DNA of 64,000 nucleotides, from the NCBI RefSeq assembly GCF_019059575.1, contig NW_024881615.1:620001-684000 (forward strand). Reading direction: 5' to 3'. Every line of letters begins with the position of its first letter. Positions within the stretch are counted from its first letter, which is position 1. The notes below the pieces were generated by a model. The model did no database searches. It was not told the DNA's origin and worked only from the letters and a program-made list of their open reading frames with translations. Made by a program: the position numbers and the translations under genes. Shown piece after piece: positions 1 through 40,200 of the stretch. The DNA comes from Amphibalanus amphitrite (taxonomy: Eukaryota > Arthropoda > Thecostraca > Balanomorpha > Balanidae).

Positions 1-213
1 AATCAATTCTCCGACATCTAATAATGTTGCCAGAAGACTTAGACTTAGACTTATTTCGTCGACTCCATCCATCTAGTAGATGCAGGATCATTTCTGATCG
101 TCTTCCAATTATGTTGGCTGTCTGGATGATAAAAATTCTGCCAGAAGGCAGAAACGTTGATCCTTTAAAGCCTACCCCCATAAATCCCTCGCGTTCACCT
201 TCTTCACCCGTAC

Positions 214-813
214 CTGGTTCTCGGCGCCGGAGGCGGCGGCCGGCCGTTTCCCGGCCCGCGGCGCCGCCGGTACGTTGGTGTCCCGTGCCGTGAGTGGCGC
301 CGGCCCCGCCTGCTGTGGCTGCTGGCCGCCCGCCTGCTGTCCCTGCAGCTTTCCCAGCTGGTCGGCGGTGAGCGGACTGACCTCGTCCAGCCTGCGGTCG
401 GCCGGCGCCCGCAGAAGACGGTCCCGGACGCAGGTCGGCCGGCCCGCCGCTGTCTGCAGCGCCAGTTTGGCTGACAGCACGCGGAGGAAGGTGAGCAGCT
501 GCGCGGGCGGCGCGTTCGAGACGAGCAGCCGCAGCTGCTGGCCGCGCACCACCAGCGTGGCCTTGCCCTCGCGCAGGAAGCGCCGGTGCAGCGTCACCTC
601 TTTGAGCACCACCTTGATCTGGTGCTGGCGCGCCGTCTGCAGCAGCAGCACCAGCTCGCGCTGCTCGCTGCGGCACAGCGACAGCGAGGCGGTCGGGTGA
701 CGCGCAGAGCGCAGCACGCTCCCTTTGCCGTCCAGCTGGTCGATCGTCACAGAGGCCGAGATCACCGGGCACGAGAGCGAGCTCTTCGGAGACTCGCCTG
801 TCGCCGCCGACAT
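214..813 (-). CDS. PIF1: PIF1 5'-to-3' DNA helicase, first coding exon (partial gene)
   Basis: This is the N-terminal part of a PIF1-type helicase, an ATP-dependent 5'-to-3' DNA helicase acting at telomeres, G-quadruplexes, forks and in mitochondria. The exon encodes 200 residues. Residues ~15-125 match the animal PIF1 N-terminal (PINT) domain as I recall it: a SLSLCRSEQRELVLLLQ segment, then FLREGKATLVVRGQQL and APPAQLLTFLRVLSAKLAL. A basic linker (KRPAAASGAENQ) follows. I chose the ATG at 811-813 (GCCATGT context) over an in-frame ATG 19 codons upstream because the domain starts soon after. A strong donor, CAG|GTACGG, ends the exon at 214 in phase 0; reading through gives 14 unrelated residues and a stop at about 172. 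The helicase motifs (Walker A onward) are not in the window and should lie to the left. The gene call rests on the PINT domain only. Confidence 0.8.
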
Positions 814-869
814 GGCGACCCGCAACACTGTGGGGGTGAGGCGTGGGGTTCCTGTGAGGATGTGTCGCA

Positions 870-1500
870 CAAGCTTCAGCTTGCTAGGAAAATGACTGAA
901 CCTTTCCAGTTTCCTTCAACCATTTCCTGAAATCTCTCCAATGTCCCCTGCCTAGGCAGGAAAAGTCTTAACTGTTTAACTTGTAGTGACATAACCTGTC
1001 TTTCTTCCTTTTTAAAATGTCACACCATCATCTATTATGAAGGATGATGAAACAAATTGAATAACACATACCGTACACTGTATAGGTATAGGTACTGTAT
1101 AGGTACACTGATGTGAATTGATTGTGATGCATGTACTATATGCATTGAGGGATGGCACCAACTACTATTGGTTGGTGAAAGTTATCACTTAGGTAATTGT
1201 TTTGTGTATTAATTATATTTAGACAAAGTTTCATCATGGAAAAACCTGCATTTGTTCTACCTTTTAGATTAGGTACTGAATTCAATCACAGGTAGGACAG
1301 CTAAGTCTGAAGGCTGCTGTTGTTGAGAACATTAGGTTTGGGCAGGTAAAAAAAGGCTTGGGCAGCTCAAAGTGAAAAAATGTGATGCAACCTAGCATTT
1401 GTGATGTGGCTAATTAGCTTTCAAATCCTACTACATGCTAAAAGACATCAATTGGAATGGTTTTCAAATATTACACCACGATATAACCAGACACACCTAA
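870..1500. other. AT-rich spacer upstream of PIF1
   Basis: This is the presumed promoter side of PIF1. It holds no ORF or conserved protein match that I can see. A short direct repeat (TATAGGTA, TATAGGTACTG) lies near 1080-1100. I recognise no TATA box with correct spacing. Confidence 0.4.
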
Positions 1501-1516
1501 AAAAAACATACAAAAT

Positions 1517-2515
1517 ATGCCACAAAATATACAAAAATATGAATACATGATACTGCACGGTGCTCTCAACAAGGACAGGAGCTCGAGCATACTAAGGCAA
1601 TGGGAACATTACTTTACCGCATTGAAGCTACCAGGCATAATACAAATGATGACAACAAATGGAGTACAGGGTAAGAGCTGGTATAAAGTTTGCAAACAAG
1701 CCATCAACGCGTATACTAAAGCAATGATTATAGAAGAAGCTAGCAAGAGACAAACTATACAGTGGATCGCCGATATTGCACAAAATATGGAAGAATACGA
1801 GCCAGCGGATCAATTCTGGCCGAAAAACAGACTAAGTGTTATTGGCAGACAAGCGACAGGCACGAGGATACGACTTCTAACGGAGCAGTCGCTTCTTGCC
1901 ACAGGAGTCTTAAGAAGGCACGCTGAGCGAAATGAGATCTGTCCATTATGCATGAAAGCAACAGAAACTCTTGAACACTTTCTTTATGAGTGTGTGGAAC
2001 TGCGGCAAGAACGTGAGGAAGGACAGAGGAGGAGGAATGCGAGGTTAAATAGGACTCTACCTGCGAAGCTGACTGTCCGCAATGCTGACTCAGAAGAGGC
2101 CTTGTTGATCAATTACCTATACAAGACAAGGATACAAAAGGAACTGCAGTCTGCATGTCGACAGCAGTTGAAACGAGCAGGACAAGAAAAGAATCCTGTC
2201 CTCATCCTCCCAGTCTCTCCTTGCCTGGTGCCACCACTAGCGTCTTGCACAGTACCTAACGTAAAGGCTGAGATAAGGGACAGCAGAGGGTCATCAGGGA
2301 GGACAACCTGATGGTGCACCCGATGGGTGGAACCGACGACTGAGAAGCCACAGATTTACTCATTCCCGCTGATCGGTCATATGACCGATGAGCGGGAATT
2401 TTGAGCCGGAATCCCTCTTCTTTTTTCGCAAATGCAATTCTAATGATTGTGATTGTTTGATGGATGATATGAATGAATTGGGAATATTTTTTAAATAAAA
2501 ACTTTCTCAATTCAA
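1517..2515 (+). mobile_element. 5'-truncated non-LTR retrotransposon (LINE) 3' end
   Basis: An uninterrupted 264-codon frame (1517-2311) looks like the C-terminal end of a LINE polyprotein. It has a GRQATGTRIRLLTEQSLL-like segment followed by the zinc-binding tail found after reverse transcriptases (zf-RVT), CPLCMKATETLEHFLYEC, i.e. Cx2C..H..C. No reverse transcriptase core lies upstream, so the copy is 5'-truncated, the usual outcome of target-primed reverse transcription. About 180 bp after the stop there is an AATAAA signal (2494-2499) and the repeat-like character ends soon after. The intact frame suggests a fairly recent copy. The clade cannot be set from this fragment. A single-exon host gene is a less likely alternative. 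Confidence 0.7.
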
Positions 2516-2519
2516 TAGA

Positions 2520-3550
2520 GTAAAGTAGTGAAAGTCACGGTGAACATAAACAAAGTTAAAGTTGGGTTTTTCATAAGCTCGTAAGAACTCATAGAATGTA
2601 AAATTGAATTGAAATTCATTGCTGATCAAATAAAAAACAAGCAGGTCCTTTACTAAAATATGAGCGAAAAAACCAGTTAATGTCTGGATAGCAGCTTAAA
2701 ACCTTGTTTTTAGACTTAAGAGATGTGACAACCTAAAACATTTGGGTAAATTGCATCTCAACCTCTACATAAATGGCGCGGATGGGCAATCCCGGTATCT
2801 TTTGACCACAATTTTTGCAAAATACGATGGGAGCAAAAGGAACTTGACTAGTTTAAACGCATTTTCGACATTCAGACGAACCATTTAACCACAAATACGA
2901 ACCTCAGAAAAAATATAAAAGAAAGAAACCAGCTATGAAAACATGGAAAACCGCAGCAGACATCCGAGACTTTTAAATGTAAACTACTGCCATATCGACT
3001 CGATAGGGTAAAAGTGCTGCCACATGAAGGCATTACTCTGCATTTCTTTTTGCCGTAGTAAAGTAATCTTGCTTTTTGCCACCAATGCTCTTGACGTGGG
3101 CCGACCCGGCCGACCAAAACCAAAATCGGCAGAACTGTTTGGAATACGGAGTGAAATATGGGGCGGTGAGCCTACTAGAGGGGGATGGGGAGGGGATGTT
3201 AGGTTCCTTGTGGAATCTTTTTACACCTATGACGAATCTTGCGTGAATTCAAGGTGGGGTGTGCCAGTTATCTGCCACTTTACCAGGACGATGGGATGAA
3301 ACGGCGATCAGTGGTGCCATGATTCTAGACCCAGTACGATACACTCAAGGTCGTGGCCAATCTGAGTCACGCCATTGAAGAACAGAGTGGAAAACAGAGC
3401 TACCAGTATTGAGCACGACTCGCTCAGTCACTTGTCCAGTGAACAGCTTTCACCACACGTCTAACAGCAGCTCAGTTTCCGCCTCTCCCGAGCCCAAAAC
3501 GTTCTAGTCTAAGCAAGCCGTGAAACAACTATCAGACATTCATTGAATCA
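2520..3550. other. Spacer without recognised genes
   Basis: This is AT-rich intergenic sequence. The short frames around 2872-3299 overlap on both strands and show no domain or codon signal. I see nothing I can support. Confidence 0.35.
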
Positions 3551-3747
3551 TGTATTTACCACCACATCACATGTCAGTGTGGCGACTGGCACACAGTAAT
3601 CCAATCCGCGTACCCTCCGACAGTTCAAAAACGCTCACGCGAACCCGCGAGTCACTGGCAGAAAGGGCAGCAGGCAGTTCGATGTCAGTCAGCAGTTCCG
3701 GTAGACAACTTTGTATCAGCTGCATGACGTGCCTCTCTGAGAGGGAC
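3550..3747 (-). CDS. Possible orphan terminal exon, unknown protein
   Basis: A minus-strand frame preceded by a good acceptor (TTCTCTGTTGCCAG, cut just above 3747) encodes about 60 residues with protein-like composition, including SLSERHVMQLIQSCLPELL and DSRVRVSVFELSEG, and ends at a TGA near 3565. I do not recognise the family. It could be the last exon of an unseen gene between here and the transposase-derived gene, an alternative 3' exon of that gene, or chance. The upstream 40 codons of the same open frame look intronic. Confidence 0.25.
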
Positions 3748-4261
3748 CTGGCAACAGAGAAAAATGACGACGACAATGATGTTGATATAGGTTGATTGAA
3801 TGATACCCAGACTACAGTACAGTGGTCACTGGTCATCAGCGCTCCACAGTTTGCCAATAGAACCATGACAACAATAACACAGCACCAACTAACACAGGAC
3901 GGCTCATAGACTGCTACCGGAACCTAGAGACGTCTGTTATAGCGACTCGCGATTCATAAACCTATAACTTACCGAGATTGCGCGTTGTCCAGTCCAGGTT
4001 AGCCGATCGCCGATAGTTTTGGTTTCGAGCAGTTCTGGACCCATCTGGGGCGGAAGTTCCCTCCTAGGTCAGCTGGGCACCTCCTTCCGTTTCCATCATC
4101 CGGCAAACCTGTGTAGGTTCCATTCCAGTAAGTCTCCGATATACAAAATCAACGCAAGAGAAAAAGAAAAACAAATGCTATAGCCATTAGAAATAACAGT
4201 TGGCAGCACTTGACCGCGAAATAAGAAAGCTGTAATCGCCACGCCATATGTGGAAGGCTTT

Positions 4262-4352
4262 TGCTGGGACACATACATACATACACACATACATACATAC
4301 ATACATACACACATACATACATACACACATACATACATGCATACATACATGA
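4262..4352. repeat. (CATA)n / (CACA) microsatellite
   Basis: Interrupted tandem CATA with CACA variants. The long MYVCMYVC-type frames across it are translations of the repeat, not genes. Confidence 0.95.
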
Positions 4353-4612
4353 TACGTAGTCTTATAAGTCCTAACTCACCTTCTTTCGAAGATCAGCTCC
4401 CTAGGCTGTTCTAGGATCTCGAGACGCAAACCGGAGTCCATCCCCCTTCTGATCTGGTACTCTGATCTCTTCGCACTGCAGTCCAAACGCCTGACATCCC
4501 CGTGCCGCTGTAGGCGGGTCGTTCTCAGGGCTAACGATCGGCTAGTGTCTCCTCCCAGTTCTATCTCCGCTGTTGGTCTATGCCGGGTCGGTAGGCCAGT
4601 CCCCGCAGCCCC

Positions 4613-7600
4613 TCAGCCGCCCGGCGCCCGGTACAGCCGCTCCACCCTAGCCAGCTCGTGTCTCAGCTGTACCGGGTCGCCCCAGTCGGCCAGCTGTGCC
4701 CTCACGGCCGCCAGCAGGTCAGCGTCAGCGCGGCCCTCGCTCAGGGCGGTGGCTATCGCCAGCTGAGGACACACAGGAGCGGCCGGGGTTACAGGACGTC
4801 ACGAGCGTTAGAGACACAAAGAGACACATCTGCATCACACGACACTCGAAAGTGCCAGCCACCGAACCTGGTTGGCGGTATTACAACAACTCACAAATTG
4901 ATCCATTAACATAGCAGCTAGCAAACGAAAATTCTGAGAATCTCAAGTGCTGTCGCCATGTTATTAGCCATCACTACGTGCCAGAGATCATGCACGCCCG
5001 CATGCACCACACAGCCGGTGCCGACGAACAAAAAAGAGGGTCAGTGTATGCATTGATCAGTACAACTTCTAACATTCTGTCCCGGAGTCCCGACTCCACT
5101 CACCATCAGTCGCTGCCGGCTGGCCATGAGCGGGTTGGCGGCAGCGGCCAATCCGGGCGGTATCAGAGCCACCCGTCGGCCGGCAGCGGCCGCCTGGCTG
5201 CGCAGCTGCTCGGGCCGCGGCGCGCAGCAGCTGTTGAGCAGCAGCAGCTGCGCCGGGCCGCGGCAGCCGACCAGCTGCAGCCAGAGGCCGGCGCGGGCGG
5301 CGTCCAGCCGTCCGTCCTCCTGCTGGGCCGTCAGCAGCCCGCTGCTGTCCGAGTAAACCTGACGGCCGCCGCCCTGAACAATACACGATACAAACCACAG
5401 TCACTACACCTGGGTCATGGGTGTAATTATACAAAAAACTTCAGTCTGAGCACACCCGCCGGGCACCGCCCAACTTAATACGTACCACAGACCGCTATAA
5501 GTGCACTCGGGTGTGATACAAACTGCTTCTAACAGAGTTAACTCACACACTTTAGTGTTTTATGCAACGGCTCACGGCTATCAAAGCAAGAACATCTACA
5601 TGTAATAGAGACGCCCAAATGCAATGTATCCTGTCTTGCAACAGATTTGCAACACACAGCCATATGTCTGCAGGCCTCCCATCCCCACTAACCTTCATAA
5701 TGAGCATCGGTGGCTGTACGGATCCTTCCAGCGTGCAGCTGATGAGCAGTGTGGCCAAATGTTCCGAGTCCTCAGACCTCCAAACGGCGCACGGCGCTGA
5801 AAATGAAAATAAAGGGGATACGTGGCGTTGATGTCAGAAATAAGAGCCACTTTCGCGGATGCTCTACGGATGTTTAATACATACACTTTGCATAAAATGG
5901 CAATGAAGTGCCAGGACCAGAAATAAGTTTGTAGATAAGCACAGGTATACCACATATGCTACGATACACACCAATAACACAAAGAATAGAAGATTGAGTG
6001 AATTTACTACAATAAAAAACAATCGCCCATAAAACATCGCCTTACCTGGCCTGGTTGAGATGGGTACGTCCGCCATGACGACAACTGCGTGCGGCGGCGG
6101 CGGCTGCAGCCTGCCGGCCCAGTGCTCTGCCTCCGCCAGCAGCGGCTCGGGCAGCTGCATCTGCCAGGTGGCCAGCGGGCGGCCGAGCGGCCGGTGGCGC
6201 GCCAGCAGCCGCGCCGCCCAGAACTGGCCGCCCGGCTGCTGGCCGTACGCGGCCAGCGCCGGCCGGCTGGTGGCGCGGCCCTGCTCAAACTCGGTCAGCA
6301 GCCAGCGGACGGCTGTGTGCTCGCGGCGCCGGTCCGTCACGTCCGGCACCTGACGCTGCCAGTGGCGGCTGTGCGGCACGCTCAGCCCGGCGTCCACGTA
6401 CATCCGTCGGGCCACCCGCCGCACCTCCTGGTAGGTGGGCGGCGCGGCGGTGTCCCGTCGGCGGCGCTGCAGCCAGTCGGCGAACTCGGCGTCCACCTCC
6501 GTGGGGCGCCGCTTCTTGCCGCCGCCCTTGGCGCGCACACACACGGCTGCCGAGGCGGCCATTTCGGCCAGCTGCCGCCGAGCCGCGCGCCACTTGTAGA
6601 CGACGGCCAGCGGCACGCAGAACGCGGCAGCCACCTCCTCCGCCGTCATGAACTCGACGAACCGCAGCAGCAGCAGTTTGAACTGGGGCGGGTAACCTAT
6701 CCGCACCGGTTTTCCCCCGGAGTCATTCTCAGTGACTCTCTTCCCCTGCACAGCGGCCAGTCTGTCGAGCCATAGCGCCAGGTAGGAGCCGTCCTCAGAC
6801 AGCCGGCGGCGGCCGTCGGGGCCAAGAAGAGCGGCCAGCTCGGCGCTCAGGCCGGCCCGGGTCACCGGCTGCTGGGCGGCGGCGCGCTGCCTCAGCCAGG
6901 CGAGCACAGCGGTCGCCGGGTCGCGCTCCGGCAGTCGCGGCGGAGAGAGGTCATCGGCCGCGGGCCGAGAGATGACTATGTTGGTGGAGAGGCACGCTGA
7001 GGTCTTTGTCACAGAAGGAGCCGCTGATCGTGCGGGCTGTAACTGTGCTGGCGCTGTCGTGTCTGGGCACTGTGATACTACAGCAGCGGTTATGGACTCT
7101 GCAGCTTCAGCTGGCCAGTCGTATGACATGGCGGACGAGACCGCAATTTCGAATGGAGTACTCTGGGGGTGTACGCGAGCACATGTGGTATCCCGCACCA
7201 GTGGAGGGTCCGCGACTGTCACCGCTTTAGCGGTCTCAGTCGTTGGAGCGTACGACGTTTCGACCGGGAAATCATCCAAGACGTTTGATGCAACCGAGGC
7301 CAGAGCGGCGAGTGCCGATAGGTTATCAGTTGCCAGGGTGGACGTCGCTGATTCGTTGGCCGTGCGAGCTGGCTGATCGGTCGCGGGAAGTTGTAACACC
7401 TCAGTCTCAGCTTCTTTGTCTGACTTCTCCGACTGGACCGAGCTCAGAGACGGCTCAGACTCTATCGCAGGGACATCACTCTCGGAGGAGAGCAGCGCAG
7501 AGCCAGCCACGGCCCACAACAGCTGAGTGAGCTCCGAGTCGGATTCTGAGACCGCTGGATCGGAGCCGACGGGACGGGCGGGCGTCTCGGCCGCTGCCAA

Positions 7601-9249
7601 AGTCTTCTTATCAACGGGCGTCGGCTCAGCGTCACTTATACCACTATCCTGCCACTCCATACGAGTGGCCTCATTCAGCTCTTCTTCACTCGGTTGGACC
7701 ACATCAAGGACCAGGTATTTCTCGCCCTCTTCATCCAACACCTCCAGTCCCGACTCCCAGAGAGCCTCGTCAAGAAACACAGCGTCGGCTCCGTCCAGCA
7801 GGTCCGCTGTTCCTTCCCCAGCCTCGTCCCCTGCACCGACCTCCTCTTCCCGCTGCCACCCGGAGGTCAGACCCATCACCAGGTTAGGGTCCACCCAGTG
7901 GCCGGCCGGCTCGTCCAGCATCGGCTCCCAGTCCGGCGGACAAGACTCCGTCACCAGACTCGGCTCCGGGACCAGCTCCGGCGGCGGCTCCGTGCTCTGG
8001 CTCGGAGCTGCAGGAGCCGGCAGCGGCTGCGGAGCGACCGGTGCCGCCGCCGGGCCCTGTCGCTGCGAGTAGCCGTGGTCCTGGGGCAGGCCGAGCTGGT
8101 CCGAGATACTGCGGATCAGGTCCTCCTCAGTGAGCGCCGCCGGCGGGCTGTAGGCGTACCGGTGGTCGGTGGCCGAGCACGCGTCGCCGCCCGGGGAGGC
8201 CGGCCGCGAGGCGTACTGGTGGTCGGCGCTCGGGCGCACCTCGCCGGCCACCAGCGGCTCCAGCGGGTAGTCGTAGTTGTGCTCCTGGTAGGGGGTCGGC
8301 TCCCCGGACGGCGGCACGCTGCCCGGCGGCGCCACCTCCTGCTCCGTCTCCTCGCTGACGGTCAGCTCACACTCGACCTCGGAGAGTCGCGCCGCGGCCG
8401 GCGGCGTCCAGACGGCGCGACCCTCTGACGGCGCGGGATACTGGAGACGGGAGTGGCTGAACTCCCGGGATACGGAGCTGGCAGGGATATCCACTGGTGC
8501 CTGACACACCTGGTGACCCAGGAGTGGGGAGGGACCATCGGGGCGCTCTGCCCAGCTGGAAGATGTCAGCACTGGTAGGGGAGAGGACGATGGCCGGAGT
8601 TGACCGGAGGCACCGAAACAGTCCTTGACATCTGCTTGGTGGGTTTCTGGAGTACACTGGACCACATGAGGCTGAACAGAATCTGTGGCATCATGTTGTG
8701 CACTTATCTCTGCCTCACTAATGGCAGACATGGGTGGGCTGTCTTCTTCTGTGGGCTCATTTTCCAGCATCTGAAAATGTCCGGCCTCCAAATTTTCCAG
8801 TGACATGGGCTCCTGAACATTTTCCTGAAAGATTATCCTGTCCCAGCTCTCCACTGAGACCATGCTAGGGGCCAGCAACGCCAAACCATCCACAGCCTCT
8901 GTAAGAGTACTGGAATCATGGATGACATCTAGTGTCTGCACACACTGCTCAATGAACTCTGAGGAAAGACCAACAGGCCACAGCTCATCAGCTGTAGCAT
9001 CAGTTACCAGGAGCTGAGTGTATTCAGTACATGGCTGGTTCAAAAGCAGCTCAGTGCATTCTGCATCCAACTGATTTTGAGGTGGTGCTTGTGTATACTG
9101 CATGTCTGAGCTTGCCACATCTTCAAAAGCAGCATGATTAGATTCTTCCATAAGCATCTGGGGAGAAATTGTACTGCATGCTTCATCTGGATGTTGTGGA
9201 GAAACTATATCATATTTTGTGTCACTCCTTCCTGCATCCATTTTTCATC
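4613..9249 (-). CDS. Tc5/pogo-type (CENP-B/jerky/tigger-like) transposase-derived protein with degenerate DDE core
   Basis: There are four coding exons: 9241-6046, 5796-5693, 5373-5104 and 4762-4613, giving 1,239 residues with phases that join exactly. An acceptor (TTCTTCCAG) lies 9 bp above the ATG at 9239-9241, so there is a 5' UTR intron. Residues 1-~770 are long, acidic and low-complexity (Ser/Pro/Glu). A CENP-B-type DNA-binding segment follows (~776-835, with SEDGSYLALWLDRL), then a psq/CENP-B N-type helix-turn-helix (~850-895, FCVPLAVVYKWRAARRQL), then a Tc5-type HTH (~902-965, GGGKKRRPTEVDAEFADWL). The DDE_1-like core starts at MADVP (Asp1058) and contains ATLLISCTLEGSVQPPMLIM, matching the TVLLC..DG..KLPPLVIGK strand of pogo-type transposases. 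The second catalytic position reads LLLLNSCCA (Asn1147 instead of Asp) and the third reads NPLMAS (Met1183 where QPLDQ is usual). No terminal inverted repeats flank it, introns interrupt it and the frame is long and intact. I infer a domesticated, catalytically dead DNA-binding protein, probably nuclear. Confidence 0.72.
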
Positions 9250-9259
9250 CTGGAAGAAT

Positions 9260-10640
9260 TAAGATAATTTGGTGAGTGTCACATGTGGAATCTGGCCATT
9301 CATGGAAGCAGCGAGGATCAATGTTAAGACATGTTCAAACTGAGAAAAGAACTATTTCAACAATTTTCAGAAAAAAATACAGCATAAAAAAGAAAATAAA
9401 TTGATACCTACCTAACTTACAACTAGATTGAGACAAAAAATCAGCAGTAGGAAAAAATATCAGCTTTGGGAGCTGCAAGATATTGTCATGGGATGCAGCT
9501 CAAATTGAAGAAGCATCTGCATCCAGCATCTCTGGACATGCAAGTTATGGGTGGGGGTGGGGGACCAAGGACAAAACTAAGTGTTAGTATTTAAGCAGGC
9601 ATCACACCTACTGAAACAACACCTTAATCAGGCTTAACTACAATAATATGAACATTCACAAAGCATTTCTCCATTGATGCCAGATTGAGATCAAATGAAC
9701 CAATCAAATTGTCTGTCATGTCATTCATTGTCTGATTCAATGTCTGATTCAATAGCCTCCAGCTCAGCTAGTGGAAACTAAGAAGTTCCACTCAGCTTGA
9801 GCTAGTGGAAAGAAAGCTCCAGTTGAGGTGAGCTTTCTTTCCACTAAGCCAGCCATTTGATGACTTATAAGTCAATATAGACCCATCCGACCCATCAGAC
9901 CCATCTAGTGCCCCAAGTGAACTGATTCATGATAACAAACTTCATGATCTTCTTGTTCTTGTTGGATTAGGGCGCGTAGCTGCCAGGGCTGCCAGGGCTC
10001 AAGCGTCCATCAAACTTCATGATCGCAAATGATCGCAAAATGATCGCAAAACGCTTCAATTTTCACTTATATTGATATGAACTCAAGCAGATTAAAATTG
10101 CAGGTGTACTGATAATTCCATTAGGATAAAAGTAATCGCATTGCTATCAAGCATAAAACCTGCTTACCCCTTCCCAATTTCGATTTTTATCCCCCAAATC
10201 CCACAAATCCGCGGCCGCCCCGACCACAATTCAAAATAAAAACAACAACGCGCAAATTCCAAACAAAATATATCTAACTGCTGTTCACTACTTATCTCAC
10301 AGGAGAACGCTGCCAGGCTGCAGATGACTCTCGTCTTTTCATTGGTGAAATTTTCTTACAAGTGGCGTTTGACCAATAAGAGGCCGACGCTGACAAGCAT
10401 CATACCAAATGTCGAACAGCAGATACATTTTACAGAAATGGCGCACAAGAAACATAAACGGAGGATGACACAACTGTGTAGGCTGCTAAATAGAAAATAC
10501 CTTTTGTGATGTGGAAATATTTCAATTTACAATTCGTGCCCCTAGTTCAAGTTCAAGGGCATAGGCCAGTATTGTGCTTCAGGGAATTCTGAACTCTGCC
10601 GAAGCGTTAAATATTTGTTAAGGTTTGCTTTCACCAGGCA
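9260..10640. other. Upstream/5' UTR intron region of the transposase-derived gene
   Basis: No supported coding exon is seen. A perfect 16-bp hairpin stem lies at 9803-9846. A short plus frame at 10324-10509 has no domain. The 5' UTR exon and promoter of the minus-strand gene probably lie here, but I cannot place them. Confidence 0.35.
9803..9846. repeat. Perfect 16-bp hairpin
   Basis: TAGTGGAAAGAAAGCT (9803-9818) is followed after 12 bases by its exact reverse complement (9831-9846). A partial relative (TAGTGGAAACTAAGAAGTTCCACT) sits just to the left. Confidence 0.9.
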
Positions 10641-10651
10641 TTCTTAGATTT

Positions 10652-11585
10652 CAGTTGGGCAAACTAGACTTTTGGAATCAAAATATGGAGGCATCAATAA
10701 TTTGATTCTGGTGGGAGGAGCCATGACCAAATATGGGCATGGAATCAATTTTTTGATTCATTTGGGTACACTTTTGACTTCAAATGAATCGTTACGGTTG
10801 AAAAAAGGCCCATGACGGTGAGATTTTTTCTTTTAAAAGGTAGAAAAATGTGGTAGGTTTGCAAAAAGTGTTACCTCAAAGCTAAGAAATTGTCCCTTTG
10901 GCCTTGTGAATGGGAAAAAGACATAGCCACTGTCCATCACGTAAAAGCTGTTTTGAGGAAATCACACTGTATGTTATTTTTGTATCATGAATCACATACT
11001 AACCAATCAGTATTTGTGTAAAATGGCAAAATGAAATTTTTAAACCCCTAATTATCATTGTTGTAGTGCTTGTATATTATTTATATGGTTTTTACATGTT
11101 GCTTCAGTTTTTGTATTCTTCACATTTAAAAATTGTGAATTGTTATGAAATGTGGTGAAGGTAAAGTACAACAATGCTATAGGTATCAGTTGTGGTGCTG
11201 AGGATACCACTAAATGAGAATAATAGCAAGATAAATGCTGTATTCTTGCAAGTCATTGTTGCCTATCTGTTAACATTACCTGTGAATCAAAATAATGATT
11301 AGCCAGCTGATGGGGAATCAATATTATGATTATCTGTTTAAAGTGAATCAATTCCTTGATTGCCTTTCACTACCTATATAATTCAAATTGTTATGATAGG
11401 AGCAATATTATTTTGCTTAGGAGATAGTTCAAGCATTTCTGTTCAAGATCAGGCATGCTCTTTCTTGAAACACTCTCTTATTTTTATGTGATTGGTAAGT
11501 TAGAAATGGTCTGCATTTATGCCCAAAAGGAATCAATCTTTTGATGCCTCCATATTTTGATTCCAAAGGTCTAGTTTGCCCAACT
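10652..11585. mobile_element. Non-autonomous inverted-repeat element (MITE)
   Basis: Terminal inverted repeats of about 45 bp bound it: 10652-10697 starts CAGTTGGGCAAACTAGAC, and 11541-11585 is its reverse complement with one visible mismatch (Ctttt vs Ccttt). ATTT flanks both ends, a possible 4-bp target duplication. The interior is AT-rich and non-coding, with several TTTTGATTC/GAATCAA repeats. It ends 58 bp before the predicted kish start codon, so it may overlap that promoter. Confidence 0.8.
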
Positions 11586-11642
11586 GATTTCCCATTCAAA
11601 CAATTCACCGAATTTTGCCAAGGCAACACACTGCGATCAGCA

Positions 11643-31275: not shown

Positions 31276-34200
31276 TCAGGAGACCATCCTGTGCAGCTCC
31301 TCCAGGGTGTGCAGGAAGCCGGACAGCTGCTCCAGACCCTTTCCGAGCAGCAGTCTGAAACGCGCCGGTGCCGCCGGGTCAGTCTGCCGTCCGAACGTCA
31401 CCGGGAAACGCGGCCAATTCTCGATACACCGACTTAGTGCCCGGTAAAAACACCCGGCACACTAAAAACACCACTATTCGGTGCCCCGCCTCCGCTCATT
31501 AGCCAGCGTACTGTCCATAATCGGTAGATACACGGCATAATATATGAATCGAACACCGCTCAGGCGCCTTCTTTGAGGCATTAATGCCGAATATAATACC
31601 GTCGCTCTACATGAATGGCATGAGCAACGTGAAACCGTAAACTGGACCCAGCAAGTCTCGAGTGGCACCTGCACCCCATTGCGACCCTTTCCCGAGGCCG
31701 GTGGCCAGTACCTGTTGGCGGGTGAGCGGAGGAACCGGAGTAGATTCAGAGGCGCCAGGGTGACCTCGTGGCCGGCGAGGGCCACCAGGGCACCCAACGC
31801 GTCACACGCGGCCACCAGTGGTGCGTGGTCAGATGTGAGGGCCACCACCGAGACCGACATCAGCCTGGGGACAGGGCAGGTCAGGGGTCAGATGGGACAG
31901 GTCACAACGACTGATGCAACCATCAGTCTGGAGACACGAGTCAAGCTTGTCGTGTTGTAAGACATGTTGACACGTAAAAGGGTCGCTACACAAATAGCCA
32001 GTCATGTCCTGGCCACACCGATAACTCAAACGGCAGATGTGAAAGGCAACAGACACCTACTGAACACCATTTCTCACCGTTTGAGCGCACCGTTGAGGTT
32101 TTGTACCGCAGTGCCCAGCTCTGGGAGGAACGCGGCGCACTGTTCTGGGCTGGGCGGTACCGACGGCCGCTCGTACTCGTACTGATGGGGTACTCCGGCG
32201 GCATCCAGCAGCAGGCCGCTGTCGGGGGGGGGGGGGGGGAATATCAGTCAACAGAGCGGTCCAGCAGCGCCCGTCTCGAACCCGTCACTCGTTAGCTGCA
32301 GCGCTTACTACGCGAAATCTAACCAACGACCAGGCGCGTCTTCCCAGCTGAGACTGATGAGACCAATGTTACTCTGATGCGACTAAAGCCTGGACTTCAC
32401 CCTGAATGAAGAAACCAAATTTGATGTTTGTTTTGGGTTATTATCAGCACTAAGTCATGTCTTCAACGAGTCATCGAGTCCATGTCCTCATTAACACACG
32501 CACTGCAGCGGGTCTGAGCCGAACACGAACTGCAGGGGGGGGGGGGGGTTGAAAACAACCCCCCCCCCCCCTGAGATCTCGAAAACGGCGCAACGTAGCG
32601 ACAAACGGTAAACGGCGTTAGATAGGTGGAGATGTTATTTAGAGGAAATACTAGGTCATTTTTGTCTCAGGTCAAAAACGAGGTCACCAGAGGTCACCGA
32701 AGACAAAATGTTACGATTTTCACAACAGGAATTTCGCGGTAGTTTTTCTTGAATAACTTGTCTTGCACACAAGACAGAGGATCGATTCGAACGCCATCGT
32801 TCTTAGCTCGTCAAGGCGCATCGAATGATATATAATATGACCTCGAAAGGTCAAGTTGAAAATTTGACCTCAGGTCAAGGTCATGACCTGACCGAAATAG
32901 GTCCTGTTGCATATCATTCGATCCGCATTGACGAGAAAAACACGATAAACGTCGAACGGAGTCTCTATCTCTATTCAATCTCAAGTTATTGAAGAAAAAC
33001 CGCTGGTTCAAGTTCAAGTTCAAGTTCAAGTTCAATGTATTTCGAATCATTCCATTGCATGGTTTAGTATTTGATTCGATCACACACACAAAAGACATGG
33101 TACACCTAGCCCGTCCCCCCCCCCACACACACGTACACGCACACATGCACAAACACTGCCGCAGTAGACTGATGAGTGCAGAGCAGCCAGCGCGTCACAA
33201 TTTTCACGGATATGACAGAAGGCAAAAGCGCTAGGCAGCAAGGTGGCGAAGAAACTCAGCGTGTGTTCCAGAGCTAGTGGTGGTGGGTGGGAGGTGGTTC
33301 CAGGAGGTTGCCGCTCGGTAGGAAAAAGCTCGTCTCGACATTGATAAGCGATAATTTGGTAACTCTAATGCACCCGACAGCGTGGAGCGTGTGGCGCGCG
33401 CAGACACAGCCGCCCGTGTTGTGAACAAAGTGCGTAATGCCGCGGGAGCGAGCGGGTCCTTCAGCGCTCTGAAAACACGAATGTTGTCGCGATAGGTGAC
33501 TAAATCCGTGATTTTGGGCCAGCCCAGTGCAGACAACACGGGGGAAATGTGATCACGGTGTTTCGCCCCAGATACGATTCTAGCTGCGAAATTAATGACT
33601 TTCTGCACCCGCTTGAGGTGACAACCTACAGCCCCGCCCCAGACTGAGAGGCAGTAAATGATGTGGGGGAAGACATGACATTGAATGAGAAGTTTCAAAA
33701 CATCAGCTGAGAGGTGATGTCGAATTTTGTAGAGAGAAATAAGGACGGCATTGCATTTTTTGACGACACTGGAAATGTGCTTTTCCCAGGATAGGCTGGG
33801 ATCAATGGTTACACCTAGCATCTTCACTTGAGAAGATGGCTTGAGTACATGTCCCGGTAGGTTTAAATGGAAAGCTGAGGCTTTCTTCAGGTTCTGGGGG
33901 GTGCTAGAAATGAGAAGGCTAGTCTTCGATGGGTTCATTTTCAAAGAGTTTGACGTGAAGTAGTTGAGAACAGCACTGAGGCTTTCCTCCTGTCTCGCTT
34001 TTAGGGTAGACAGAGATGCGGGGTCGGTGGAATCTAGTAACTGTGTATCGTCGGCATAAGAAACCAAGCGTCCGTGGGGAACATATGCTGGAAGATCATT
34101 TGTGAAGATGCTGAAGAGGATGGGACCAACTAAGGAGCCCTGTGGAACACCGTGAGACAGAGGCAAAGATAGAGACCCGCCTCTCACTACCTGTTGCCGA

Positions 34201-37200
34201 CCAGACAGGTAGCTTCGGAACCAATTCGGATCTATTCCATACCAGCAGAGTTTCGTAAGGAGGACGTCGTGATCAACGCTATCAAAAGCGCGGCTCAAGT
34301 CAATTGAAGTTACAGCTACGATGTCCCCCTCGTCGATGCGCCGCGTCATCCACTCGACAGCATCGGTCAAAGCATCCTCCGTCGAGTGAGCAGCTCTATA
34401 TGCATATTGCGAATTGACCAACAGGTGATTAGTAGCAAGAAAGGACGACAGCTGCATACAAACAACTTTTTCACATAACTTCGAGAGCACCGACAGGAGA
34501 GAGATGGGCCGGAAATTACTCGGGTTATCTATGTCGCCGGACTTATGAAGTGGTACGACGGTCGCGAGTTTCCATGATAATGGAAAATACCTAAGATGAC
34601 CTTGAGATCACCTTCCAAAGGTCATAAGTGATATGTTTCGGTGAAATCACCAACAGGGACCTGTAATACTATGATCCTGAGCGTATTGAAGTCATAGGAT
34701 GGCATTCCGAGTAAGTTGAAATTTCTCCCATTGACTTATAATGGGCCGGTCGCAAAAATGAACTGACCTTAGGTCATCGATATAAAAATTCCGAGATATA
34801 CAAGTTGTAGCTCGTGATGACTTTACTATTTCCTGTGGGTCTCAAGATCATATCTCAACAACTGTGGGCTTGGTGGGATTGCAAACTTCGAAATTTACGT
34901 TTCGAGGTAGGGTCACTTGACCTGACCTTGTGACCTGACCATAGGTCACCTGGGGTCAAAATTTTTACTCAAGGTGTGCAAAGGTTGGGGGAACAGGTAT
35001 GCAAAATTTGGCGGCGCGTAGCGCCGCCGTTTTCTCGCGATTTGCGAAAAACCACAGGGGGGGGGGGGGTGAAAACAACCCCCCTGCAGTGCGCGTGTTA
35101 ATGTCCGTCCATCCATGTCGTCATCCGTGTCCATCCATGTCGTCATCCGTGTCCATGCCATGAGTCATCCGAGTCCATGTAGTCATGCCATGTCCTCATC
35201 AAGTCGTAAGGCATATGCGTTGTCACCTAGTATTCTTATAAATGTATCGATCATTGTGAAAACGATCAAGTGGCAACTGGCAAGTAAAGTACGCATATAT
35301 CGATATGTTTAACGCCGCCCCGCCGTCCATCCCCAGCAGCAGCAGGTCTCTTACCAGCACGTGTTGACGTATCTCCACACGGCCTGGAACAGGTCGAGCA
35401 CCTCTGCCGGGTCCATGTCCTGCTGCGACTCTCCACCGGACCCCATCACGGCGTCATCATCGTCGGGTGGCGGCGGCGTGCCGGTCGTCCTGTCGGCGTC
35501 CTCCGCCGGGGCGGGGCTGCCCGGTCCCGGCCGAGGACCCTCCGCGGAGCCGGCACCGTTCTGACGGTCCAGCTGCCGGACTGCTGCCGCCAGGGACACG
35601 GCGCGACCCTCGGGAGGGTCGGAGGGACCGCCCTCAGACGGAGCAGGGGACGGGTCGGAGTGTGCGGCAGCCCGGCCCCCCAGGGAGGGTCCCAGGGCGG
35701 CGAGCGCAGCGGCCGGCGGCGCGGCGCCCGAGCGGAGAGCTTCCACCAGCGGCTGCACCCGCGGCAGGTAGTGGTCAGAGGGTTGGAGCAGCGGCAGCAG
35801 CGTCACCAGACCGGAGCACAGCGAGAGCCGCTCCTCCGCAGTCAGCACCGTACGCACTGGAGGGACAGCGGGGAGCGGTCAGACACACCCGGTTGAGACG
35901 GAACGGGGGCAGCGCTTACAGGACCAGCCAGCAGTCAGGATGGCCGGGAATCGTCACACGGCTAGGACCGGGAGGAAGAGCGGCGTGACTGCGGTACATC
36001 CAAAGTTCAACTCTACATACATATGACATCAACTACCGTAATCAGGTAGGTAACTATTTAACAGCCGATATGCCATGTCAAAATAAATGAGGCGCATCTT
36101 AATGACATGCATCCGCTATATGCTAAAAAAGGCACAGCAATATCTCATAAACCTCAGTCACAATTACGCACCTCCCCTTCATAAGAACACCGGCAAGGTA
36201 CGTACCCTCCAGTAACTCACCGGATAGTTTGAGGACCTGTTGCCAGTGCGACCACCGGTCTGCGAACGCGGCCTTGAACACGGTCCGGTGGCTGCAGACC
36301 ACCGAGACCAGGTCCCTCAGGGACCACCAGGGCCGGCGGAGACCGGGCAGCGCCAGCCACGCGACGCCGTAGGTGAGGGCCATCTCACGGCGGATCACCT
36401 GGGGGTCGGGCAGTGGGGAGGGATAGTAAGGGAGCCGGCGAGACACGGGCGGATAGTACAGGGGCAATCAGACGGCGAGAAATAACAGCCACCATATGAG
36501 GAGGGACGTCAGGGAAGGGAAGGTCAGGGAACGCCAGAGCGACAGGGAAACTGCCTTTGTGTGGACAGGGAAGGCTAGGAACCCGGGAAATGGAGGGAAG
36601 ACAGCCGAGGAGCAAACATATCTGGGCGAGGTCAGAAAAGGAATATCGAAACCTATCATGAACGCCGAATGTTTCTTGCACATTCGCGGTAGAAAGCACG
36701 ATGAAACGAAAGCACGTCGCAACTAGCAACACTACGAAAAAAAATGTTCCTAATGAAATTACGTCCCATTTTTTTAATGGCATCGGGCAAGACAAAATAG
36801 CTTACATAGGACAGCACTTTCCGCAGCACGATCTTGGCGAAGCAGATCTGGTTCTCTTCCGTCATTGTTAGCTCATCCGTAATGCCTGTCAATACAGCGT
36901 TTACCGATGACAAAATCACATCGTTTCTTTACTCGCTCAATACTCAACACATGTCGACAGCAATTAACTGGTGGTACAACGACGCTAATGCTCTGGCATA
37001 ACGTGCCCAGGCTGCATGCGACCAACTCGTTCTTCCTTCACCCTCATGTCTCACGACAGAGCCACTGTGCATCCCGTCCCGTTCCCACTTGGCAATAGAG
37101 GCAACATCCACACTCCATCCCATTCCCAACTGACCGCAGGAGGCACTATCCACCCCGCTCGCTCCCAACTCACCGCAGAGGTCGGTGTTCTCGAGCAGCT

Positions 37201-40200
37201 GCTGTCGGTTGACGCCGGTCAGACCGTGCAGCAGCACCTTGGTCAGCAGGTTCTTATCGTCAGAGACCAGCAGCAGGTGGTCGCGCCGGCCGGCCGCCAG
37301 GCAGCACTCGAGGATGGCGTCATCGGCCACGCGGCCCTCCATTCGACCGCGCGCCGCCGCCGCCTCCTCGGTCGTCTGGCCTGAGCGCCGCGGGCAAAGG
37401 CGAGCTCAGGATCATCGGATACCCAGAAGTGCAAAGTTACAAACAGATGTTTGAAAACAGAAGCTTGGCAAGTAGCTGAATTCCTGATTATCCACCTAAT
37501 ATCCGAAAGTGGTCAGCATCTCAGCAAGTTGATCTTTCGCTTTATCGTGTGAACTCGTTCACATCATGACAACTAGCCTACGATAGTGGGTTAATCATTA
37601 CCCTGACCTGTAGGCTGTAACCTCTTCGATTTTACGGTAACTGACCTCTGACAGCGGGATGACGCGCCTGGAGACACTCGAGCAGGAAATTGATGGCGGC
37701 GCGCGCCTTCGTGCAGACAGTGGGGTCACGTGAGGGCCCGTCCTGCTTCAGTCGATCCAGCTCCTGGACGACTACCCAGGGTATCAGCAGCTGAGGCCGC
37801 ATACCTGGACACAGACAAACATTAGCAACATGACGGAGAGCATTGCGGAAGAGGGAAACGGACCGATCTCATCGGAAAACAAGAAAAAATATTACACATA
37901 AGTCGATTCCGAAGAACAAACACGAATGACGAGCGTGCTATCTGACCAAGAACTAGAAAGTGAGGCCGACACAAACACAAACAAATTTTTATGTGCAAAA
38001 GCATGTCGCATCAGCCATCCTGGCTCGAGACGAACCTGAAATAACACTCCACGACCTTTAACCACAGCTCAAGAGTGCTCACCCTCTATGTATGATACAT
38101 AAGTCGATTCCGAAGAACAAACACGAATGACGAGCGTGCTATCGGACCAAGAACTACATAGAAAGACTGAGGCCGACACTAACACAAACAAATTTGTATG
38201 TGCAAAAGCATGTCGCACCAGTCATCCTGGCTCGTGACAAACCTGAAATAACACTCCACGACCTTTAACCACAGTTAAAGAGTGCTCACCCTCTATGAAC
38301 GAGTCTCGCAGGTCCAGCACGAAGCCCACGCCGTGGATCAGCACGTTCGTGTCCAGTACAACCGTGAGGTGTGTGGGCGCAGCCGGCTCGGCGGCCGGGG
38401 GAGCCGGCTGGGTGGGACTCCAGCCGGACTGAGGAGCCCCAGTACCGGCGGAGGCGAGCTGGTGACTCCAGGGCAGCTCGGCGACCGGGGCACCACCGTC
38501 GGCGTCCCGGACACAGGCGATCTGGCCGGAGTGAGGACGTGTCAATGAACGGAACCGTAACGCACGCATAAAGCGTAAAAACAGCAGCTTTGAACATATT
38601 TAGGCTAATACAATTTACATTTTACATGAAAGAAACCAGATTAATTTTAAAAGTTCAAATGCATTATGTGACTGAGCGTCTCGATTACATTAGGCTTAAA
38701 CTGCAGCTGAAACCAATGCAATATCAGAACATACACCCATCCGGAGTTCGAACGACCATCAGCTGCTGATGACACTAGCGCATAGCGACTTTCGGTCGCC
38801 AATCAAGGTGAACTCGCAAGTACTGTTCTAAATCTGTGGTCTACGCGTTTAACGTTGTTTAGCCGCGGGAACTGACCTGCGAGAGCACTTGGTCGTCGTT
38901 CAGGTCCGGCTCATCCAGCTCCATCAGTTCCTCCTCATCCAGCGCCTCCTCCTCTGGCGGGGGCGGGGGCGGTGGCGGGGGCGGCAGCAGGAGTGCAGGC
39001 GGCAGCAGTGGTGGTGGGAGCGGTGGCTGCAGCGTCGGAGGGGCCGGGGGAGGCGGCGGCGGAGGAGGCTGAGATGGAGGCTGCTGTGGGGGTAGCGGTG
39101 GCGGCAGTGGCGGCACGACAGTCTCCGCGCATATCGTCATGTCTGTAGCAGGCTGCTGCCGCCGCTGACTGGTTCCCACCGAGCCATTCACCCAGGAGGC
39201 CTCTGTCACAGCTGAGGCCGTGGCTGCCGCCCTCGCCGCCGCTGGGGAGCCGTCAGCGGGCGGCGCGGTGGGAGGGAGCGGCGGCACCACCGCCACCCGA
39301 GAAGGAGAGCCTGACGGAGCGGACCCATCAGCCCCCGGCACGGCGGACGGATGAGTCGGAGGGGCGCTTTGTGAAGGGACCCCCGGCTCCGAGACAGGCG
39401 GCCGCTTCGGGATGGTGTAGTGCTTGAGTGCGGCGCTGGGCTGCTGGGGGAGAGGCGGCACCGGAGGTTCCTGCGCCGGGCGTCTGGCTTTCGGCAATGG
39501 GATGTCGTCGTACAGCTGAGGACCCCTGCTGACCACCAGGCCACTTTTCTGGGCATTCAGAGCCCGTTTCGCTCCTGCTGTTGGAGTCTGTGTCGGCGCG
39601 GTGACCGCTCCCTTGGAGGGGGCGCCGGTCTGCGCGCCCTGAGCAGTCGTAGCCGGTACCGAGCCTGCACAGCTCGCCGCTTTGCTCGGTGGCGCAGAGT
39701 GAGAGCCGGACTTCTCAGGAGGTCGCCGTGCCTCAGTTCCACCGGCCGGGGACTGCGGTTTGCTGCTTGGAGCGATATACTGACTGGAGAAAGCATTGCT
39801 TTGACTGTCGATTCTAGCTCTGATTGCTGCTAACCTTTCTTGAATCTGTGATGCTTTTGTGACTGTCTGCTTCTGTGTCTTGTCATCAGTAGACTTTCCA
39901 GTGACTTTGGTTTTTCCTGGAAACAATTTGCCCCAAAGCTTGGATGCAGAAGCACCCACCTGAGATGCACGGATTTCGACCGCCGGCTTTTTCTTGTTGT
40001 TACCAGGCGGCGATTTCTGAGCGTGTTTAGTGGTTTCATCTTCCTTGCATGTGTCTGAAAAAGATCGTTTTCCCGATGATGTTGGCGAAGACAGTCCTTT
40101 CTGTTTCTTTGAGACAACTTTGTCAGATGAATCCTGTTTCAAATATTTTGAGGGTAGCTTAGCTGCTGTAGCCTCATCACTAGCTGAGTAGCACACTTCT

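Follow-up and report, generated by a model that had tools for sequence, protein, structure and literature searches.

A putative domesticated pogo-type transposase gene with a dismantled catalytic triad and a long acidic leader in the barnacle Amphibalanus amphitrite

To our knowledge, the well-studied domestications of pogo transposons are vertebrate genes. PMC7386202 lists 12 vertebrate genes derived from pogo, describes POGK, POGZ and CENPB as chimeric, and reports unrecognisable catalytic triads for CENPB, TIGD3, TIGD4 and TIGD5. According to PMC9976928, POGK and POGZ do not transpose, and 788 transposon-derived transcription factors are counted across animals in PMC10027918. Here we describe a minus-strand gene of the barnacle Amphibalanus amphitrite, located in a stretch of 64,000 nucleotides (contig NW_024881615.1 of assembly GCF_019059575.1, positions 620,001 to 684,000), referred to as the window. 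We consider it likely that this is a domesticated, catalytically dead host gene derived from pogo, with its C-terminal 460 residues coming from a DDE_1 transposase.

Splicing and translation of the window yield four exons and 1,239 codons with a terminal stop only, and all joins are of the GT..AG type, which bears out the intact four-exon frame proposed in the original prediction. The open frame of exon 1 runs over 1,065 codons, compared to a longest frame of 529 in 500 locally matched Markov shuffles that preserve local trinucleotide habits. A stop codon lies immediately upstream of this frame, an acceptor of good quality, TTCTTCCAG, directly precedes GATGAAAAATGG, and the first ATG past this acceptor is out of frame. 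The abutting stop codon together with the acceptor indicates that a non-coding 5′ exon is likely to lie upstream of exon 1. The three introns are all found within the DDE-like part.

Ancestry was analyzed by profile comparison with pogo sequences of the same genome. A search with PF03184 gave at least 100 matches; 30 of these loci and 14 further stretches formed a set of 44 pogo sequences, 20 of which (a single representative for each cluster among the first 30, plus 12 of the 14 further stretches) entered the hhalign profile. Residues 776–1239 aligned to this profile with a score of 47.2 (E 2.3e-5, probability 76%), in order from the second helix-turn-helix (HTH)-like module to the position of the third catalytic Asp. 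The controls remained far lower: 100 block shuffles preserving local composition reached at most 23.8, the reversed protein 22.3, the leader 14.3, and 40 decoy frames of the window, limited to 500 residues and excluding minus-strand frames starting at 4600–9300, at most 21.6. In line with this, a second copy of the gene on contig C604 scored 47.9 against the same profile, and an earlier profile of eight pogo sequences gave 35.3 versus at most 29.9 in 100 shuffles. That the C-terminal 460 residues are a remote descendant of a pogo-type (DDE_1) transposase is thus well supported at the level of sequence comparison. The DDE fold that had been proposed from the sequence is therefore retained, with moderate support, as a DDE_1-like domain, albeit one that reaches no curated Pfam cut-off. 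Sequence searches of the PDB returned no relevant match, and no relative was found in a collection of viral contigs (viral_contigs). A scan with a pogo motif for the first catalytic Asp matched 11 stretches, none of them resembling a pogo transposase.

Inspection of the catalytic residues (D1, D2 and D3) indicates that the triad has been dismantled. The three motifs could be located in 38 of the 44 pogo sequences, many of which are near-identical copies; D2 and D3 are separated by 35 residues in 36 of these 38 and by 36 residues in two, and the spacing of D1 and D2 is 108–112. In the gene studied here Asn1147 and Met1183 keep the 35-residue distance of pogo D2 and D3, and with Ala1057 as D1 there are 90 residues from D1 to D2, some 20 fewer than the pogo elements of the genome have. 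The best triple at pogo spacing is 1057-1147-1183, equalled in 1 of 500 shuffles, whereas single blocks are weak, their D1, D2 and D3 values being equalled in 107, 492 and 39 of 500 shuffles, respectively. Taken by itself, the D3 block score was rejected as proof, since an unrelated stretch of L066, a second DDE_1 gene of this genome, scores equally and 39 of the 500 shuffles reach the value. For D1, comparison of VVVMADVPIS to the NxDETG block ranks the register with Ala1057 first of 448 positions within residues 776–1239 and that with the neighbouring Asp1058 at 214, but hhalign itself placed Asp1058 at D1. Loss of D1 (Ala1057, or Val in the C604 copy) is therefore likely rather than certain, and the survival of the first Asp implied by the original prediction is contradicted in the favoured register. 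The reading of the second and third Asp as Asn and Met held with moderate support, and in either D1 register the loss of both is well supported. Loss of D2 and D3 suffices to abolish the two-metal DDE mechanism, so that catalysis would be abolished whichever residue stands at D1. Where an active pogo transposon carries a catalytic DDD triad, this gene reads Asn1147, Met1183 and most likely Ala1057 or Val.

An active element is further expected to have terminal inverted repeats and multiple copies. We searched the genome (807.6 Mb in 2,644 contigs, window included) with residues 780–1065 and 1–458, both from exon 1. The first query gave two strong matches, the window itself and, at 97%, C604:299154-300011, followed by a weak one at E=0.126; the second recovered window and C604 strongly and likewise one weak match (E=0.162). 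The weak matches, L003 from the first query with one internal stop and L069 from the second with two, were set aside as noise. The gene therefore has two strong places by exon-1 queries. Between its 2.1-kb and 1.4-kb flanks no exact inverted repeat of at least 12 bases was found, in a test directed at exact repeats. The original prediction had named many near-identical copies and terminal inverted repeats as the marks of a mobile element; the exon-1 queries revealed no copy family and the near flanks no exact repeat of this length.

The copy on C604 shares six of six splice-site dinucleotides with that of the window, and the only indels between their exons are +12 and +6 nt, which leave the frame intact. 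Intron lengths differ between the two copies (249/213, 319/255 and 341/356 in window and C604). Colinearity of C604 with the window extends over about 20 kb, in blocks at window positions 130–9425 and 11.6–20 kb, and C604 lacks a 0.94-kb terminal-repeat element of the window (10651-11587), leaving a clean empty site. Moreover, an unrelated gene, L040/L041, is likewise present twice among the scored matches. Based on the colinear flanks, the clean empty site and this second pair, C604 looks like the other haplotype of the window locus, and by the exon-1 queries each haplotype would then carry a single copy of the gene. Synonymous divergence (dS) between the two copies is 0.085, and within-individual values of 0.06–0.12 have been published for one gene of a barnacle (PMC8270832), a precedent which makes such a value possible between haplotypes. 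If C604 were instead a recent segmental duplicate, the gene would belong to a two-copy family. Divergence of the aligned flanks by 2–17% and the roughly 35 kb of additional sequence that C604 carries next to the gene would fit this, but the colinearity, the empty site, the L040/L041 pair with aligned pieces 92–96% identical and the published haplotype divergence (PMC8270832) make a duplication distinctly unlikely. The extra sequence, C604 302544-338516, lies between matches to window positions 9425 and 10366 and is missing from the window haplotype except for one 0.26-kb match.

Whether C604 is a haplotype or a duplicate, the conclusion of constraint is the same. Ratios of non-synonymous to synonymous substitutions (dN/dS) between the window and C604 copies were estimated by the Nei-Gojobori method with bootstrap intervals. 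The whole protein gives 0.317 (0.23–0.43), far from the value near 1 that the original prediction would have taken as a sign against a host gene, and residues 781–1239 give 0.155 (0.07–0.28), with 8, 8 and 30 substitutions at codon positions 1, 2 and 3 of the C-terminal part. The lowest ratio is that of the DDE-like part, residues 1045–1239 (0.049, 0.00–0.14; 2.0 non-synonymous and 15.0 synonymous changes), compared to 0.207 (0.07–0.51) for the HTH part, residues 830–1010. The leader is under less clear constraint: residues 1–300 give 0.47 (0.19–1.32), which is compatible with neutrality, residues 301–560 0.31 (0.11–0.78) and residues 561–780 0.49 (0.28–0.87). Purifying selection on the gene is supported by this comparison, and the combination expected of a domesticated gene, low copy number, an intact frame and purifying selection, is found on one pair of copies. 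With the profile comparison and the two haplotype-like places, these ratios support the proposal of a host-like, DDE_1-derived gene with lost catalytic residues. The proposal that DNA binding was kept and catalysis lost stood for the catalytic residues, but the strongest constraint falls on the dead DDE part (0.05) and not on the DNA-binding modules (0.21), with overlapping intervals, a pattern that this proposal does not predict. Constraint of this strength on a dead DDE domain points to a structural function or to one in interactions.

A pogo element that is decaying or lost its mobility recently, and is not yet a host gene, would share the remote pogo similarity, and many pogo elements with open frames are found elsewhere in the genome. 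However, the gene shows no decay, with one intact frame in two copies and in-frame indels only; the domain with the lost triad is strongly constrained; three introns and a 775-residue leader are present; and neither terminal repeats nor, by exon-1 queries, sister copies were found. We regard this explanation as very unlikely.

The region between leader and DDE-like part is read as HTH-like. Module i aligns with L066 at 38% identity over 52 columns (E=0.027), and Pfam reports for it only DUF4148 (E=0.024), below cut-off. HTH_Tnp_Tc5 is found below cut-off in the window protein (E=0.11) and in a piece of the C604 copy (E=0.025); module iii of the window alone has no Pfam match, and module iv is not called Tc5 by Pfam. 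Two Tc5-HTH half blocks, the first built from L066 and L054, another DDE_1 locus, after the L066 match had appeared, have their top places at 776, 974 and 1002, values reached by 3, 5 and 5 of 500 shuffles. AlphaFold2 modelled residues 780–1065 alone as all-helical, and its 15 helices may be divided into four groups of the size of an HTH plus two more. An HTH identity thus appears likely by position and motif; of the three modules originally proposed, HTH-like segments were recovered by block scans, but they are weak in Pfam and profile scans, and we tentatively read four modules instead of three. The acidic leader of about 770 residues is evident from its composition as predicted (132 D/E versus 31 K/R in residues 1–770), and Pfam, read out to E=10, finds nothing in residues 1–458 and 459–779, KRAB and zinc fingers included.

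Several observations weigh against a pogo-derived regulator. Pfam scans of exon 1, of the spliced DDE part and of pieces gave no DDE_1 match above the curated cut-off, and the locus is absent among the 100 genome matches listed for PF03184. Without the degenerate members L066 and L054, the pogo profile scored 35.0 and aligned with the DDE part only. The HTH modules are sub-threshold in Pfam or near noise by profile, where a DNA-binding-domain profile of six elements of this genome scored at best 3.5 versus at most 3.1 in shuffles, and the AlphaFold2 model is poor (pLDDT 50.8). Low copy number was obtained with exon-1 queries, all selection estimates come from one pair of copies, and a regulatory role is argued by analogy. 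Nothing exceeded any cut-off when parts and pieces of the gene were scanned with Pfam and NCBIfam, and the sub-threshold rows include unrelated families (GvpG 0.15, PIN_10 0.23, DUF4148 0.024, 4PPT_N 0.79), which on other pieces of the protein reach values similar to those of the HTH families (DUF4148 0.024). The locus was also not listed in a genome search for HTH_Tnp_Tc5 (PF03221).

These points bear on another reading, that of a conserved host gene which carries HTH modules but resembles a DDE domain in its C-terminal part by chance, through Ala/Leu/Arg-rich sequence. The missing Pfam call, single block scores equalled in 39 to 492 of 500 shuffles, the D3 block score matched by an unrelated L066 stretch and the GC-rich composition are all as this reading would have it. 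Yet composition-preserving shuffles, the reversed protein, the 40 decoys and the leader score far lower than the gene, and the alignment is ordered from module ii through D3 with matching spacing. A chance likeness therefore seems unlikely to us, and a pogo descent is preferred.

Compared to the vertebrate genes, the barnacle gene shares most with POGK and POGZ, CENP-B and the jerky group, and may work like CENP-B, jerky or POGK, yet it can be assigned to none of them. POGK and POGZ, which derive from Passer, are also chimeric pogo derivatives with added domains that retain the DDE domain under purifying selection and have lost transposition (PMC7386202, PMC9976928). They carry KRAB or zinc fingers and a conserved or partly conserved triad, whereas here an acidic leader without Pfam domain is combined with Asn and Met at D2 and D3. 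Of the POGK-like domains, KRAB is not called by Pfam in residues 1–779, BrkDBD (PF09607) has no match at the locus by Pfam or in the genome search, and local alignment of module ii to the genome's own BrkDBD stays below the 95% point of shuffles. CENP-B has acidic regions and binds the CENP-B box at centromeres. Derived from pogoR, it resembles the barnacle gene in its HTH modules, a DDE_1 domain with unrecognisable triad and a low Ka/Ks (PMC7386202). It differs by its CENP-B_N and dimerisation domains, neither of which is called by Pfam here (for the CENP-B_N HTH, at E up to 10), and the long acidic part of the barnacle gene is N-terminal. JRK, JRKL and TIGD2-7 are likewise domesticated pogo transposases with HTH and DDE parts and low Ka/Ks, but they have about 470–670 residues versus 1,239, and five of the eight retain a recognisable triad or part of one (PMC7386202).

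Alternatively, the gene could be an ancient orthologue of a gene of this class (POGK/POGZ-, jerky- or CENP-B-like) that many animals share, and not lineage-specific. The HTH-HTH-DDE order is like that of POGK, JRK and CENP-B (PMC7386202), and three introns in the DDE part may speak for age; the dissimilarity of module ii to this genome's BrkDBD and a leader in which Pfam matches nothing, neither KRAB nor zinc fingers, argue against it, and we consider it unlikely. No description of the gene was found in searches of the literature on pogo domestication, which had no gene name to go by.

As DNA cutting appears to be lost and intactness selected, the domesticated transposase is probably now a DNA-binding regulator, by analogy to the genes above. 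Such a protein would enter the nucleus by means of basic runs in the HTH region, where the modules would bind a DNA site; the dead DDE fold would provide a structural or protein–protein platform, and the acidic leader would act on chromatin or transcription. In its most specific form, which we propose only tentatively and hold to be doubtful, the gene would encode a lineage-specific chimeric regulator with a fully disarmed pogo DDE domain, most constrained of all parts, as functional core and selected interaction platform, its D1 site free to vary, linked to HTH modules of the Tc5 type that were duplicated and to an acidic effector of 775 residues that is new; together with L066, this genome would then hold at least two separate pogo domestications. 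Within the known class of pogo domestications the gene is a further member, with an unusual leader and a triad that is dismantled completely or almost completely. In an animal as polymorphic as this one, a pogo derivative that is under selection and has no triad would add an independent case, and it makes testable that selection keeps a dead catalytic domain and not only the DNA-binding part. Since the gene lies beyond the reach of Pfam, such genes may be undercounted.

Table 1. Positions of the gene, its parts and other annotated features in the window.
Feature	Position	Strand	Basis or remark
Exon 1, coding part	6046..9241	-	residues 1-1065 + one base; ATG at 9241; donor CAG|GTAAGG
Exon 2	5693..5796	-	acceptor TTTTCAG, donor AAG|GTTAGT; length equal in C604 copy
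Exon 3	5104..5373	-	carries D2 and D3 positions; 97.8% identical in C604 copy
Exon 4 and stop codon	4613..4762	-	frame and splice joins, also in C604 copy
Acidic leader, residues 1-775	6917..9241	-	composition, open frame
HTH-like module i, residues 776-840, Tc5-HTH-like	6722..6916	-	top position of two-sequence Tc5-HTH block in whole protein
HTH-like module ii, residues 848-905	6527..6700	-	Pfam HTH_23 E=0.058 (below cut-off); paired by hhalign with N-terminal pogo HTH
HTH-like module iii, residues 909-973	6323..6517	-	sub-threshold Pfam HTH_Tnp_Tc5; predicted helices, low confidence
HTH-like module iv, residues 974-1021	6179..6322	-	second-best and best positions of two Tc5-HTH half blocks
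Likely D1-equivalent codon, Ala1057 (Val in C604 copy)	6071..6073	-	register test, polymorphism between copies
D2-equivalent codon, Asn1147	5233..5235	-	hhalign alignment, 35-residue spacing to Met1183
D3-equivalent codon, Met1183 (NPLMAS vs pogo QPLDVS)	5125..5127	-	rank 1 of 1219 block positions
Retroelement piece, RVT_1 frame	33231-34604	-	Pfam, E 1.4e-30
Retroelement piece, zinc-binding-in-RT (reverse transcriptase) match	1487-2308	+	Pfam, below cut-off
Frame with PIN_4 domain match	36947-37405	-	Pfam, E 6.8e-5

L066 (G000:C10:1750250-1751450, locus C10:1750357; also L070) shares a Tc5-type HTH, DDE_1 and an Ala at the D1 position with the gene of the window, and occupies one place each among the matches listed in the DDE_1 and HTH_Tnp_Tc5 genome searches. 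It differs by clear Pfam matches (DDE_1 57.9 bits; HTH_Tnp_Tc5 53 bits, E 2.7e-11) in a 607-codon frame, and the similarity of the two is weak (the 38% over 52 columns). At D1 it reads VVAEMGLVF, and by eye D2 and D3 appear changed too; from its sequence, L066 is possibly another pogo domestication. L054 (G000:C2134:23100-24300) combines DDE_1 and HTH_Tnp_Tc5 within a frame of 824 codons, in which a clear D1 motif is missing and the best position for D2 reads Val. It is also present in C2209, with 3,177 bases identical, and C176 has a DDE_1 match of equal extent.

The gene represented by L040 (G000:C1266) and L041 (C111) encodes a DNA-binding domain of the Brinker type (PF09607, E 1e-7), and a separate frame nearby contains a CRACRALFRSVANLLAHKRRYC stretch resembling a zinc finger; the two places of the gene, 92–96% identical in aligned pieces, are apparently haplotypes. 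The element at window 10651-11587 has 58-base inverted ends that are 93% complementary, an ATTT-like target duplication and at least 38 copies of similar length elsewhere in the genome at 98–100% identity, and its site is empty and clean in the other haplotype. It appears recently mobile and looks non-autonomous. An ACAT microsatellite (window 4271-4350) lies about 260 bases past the stop codon of the gene.

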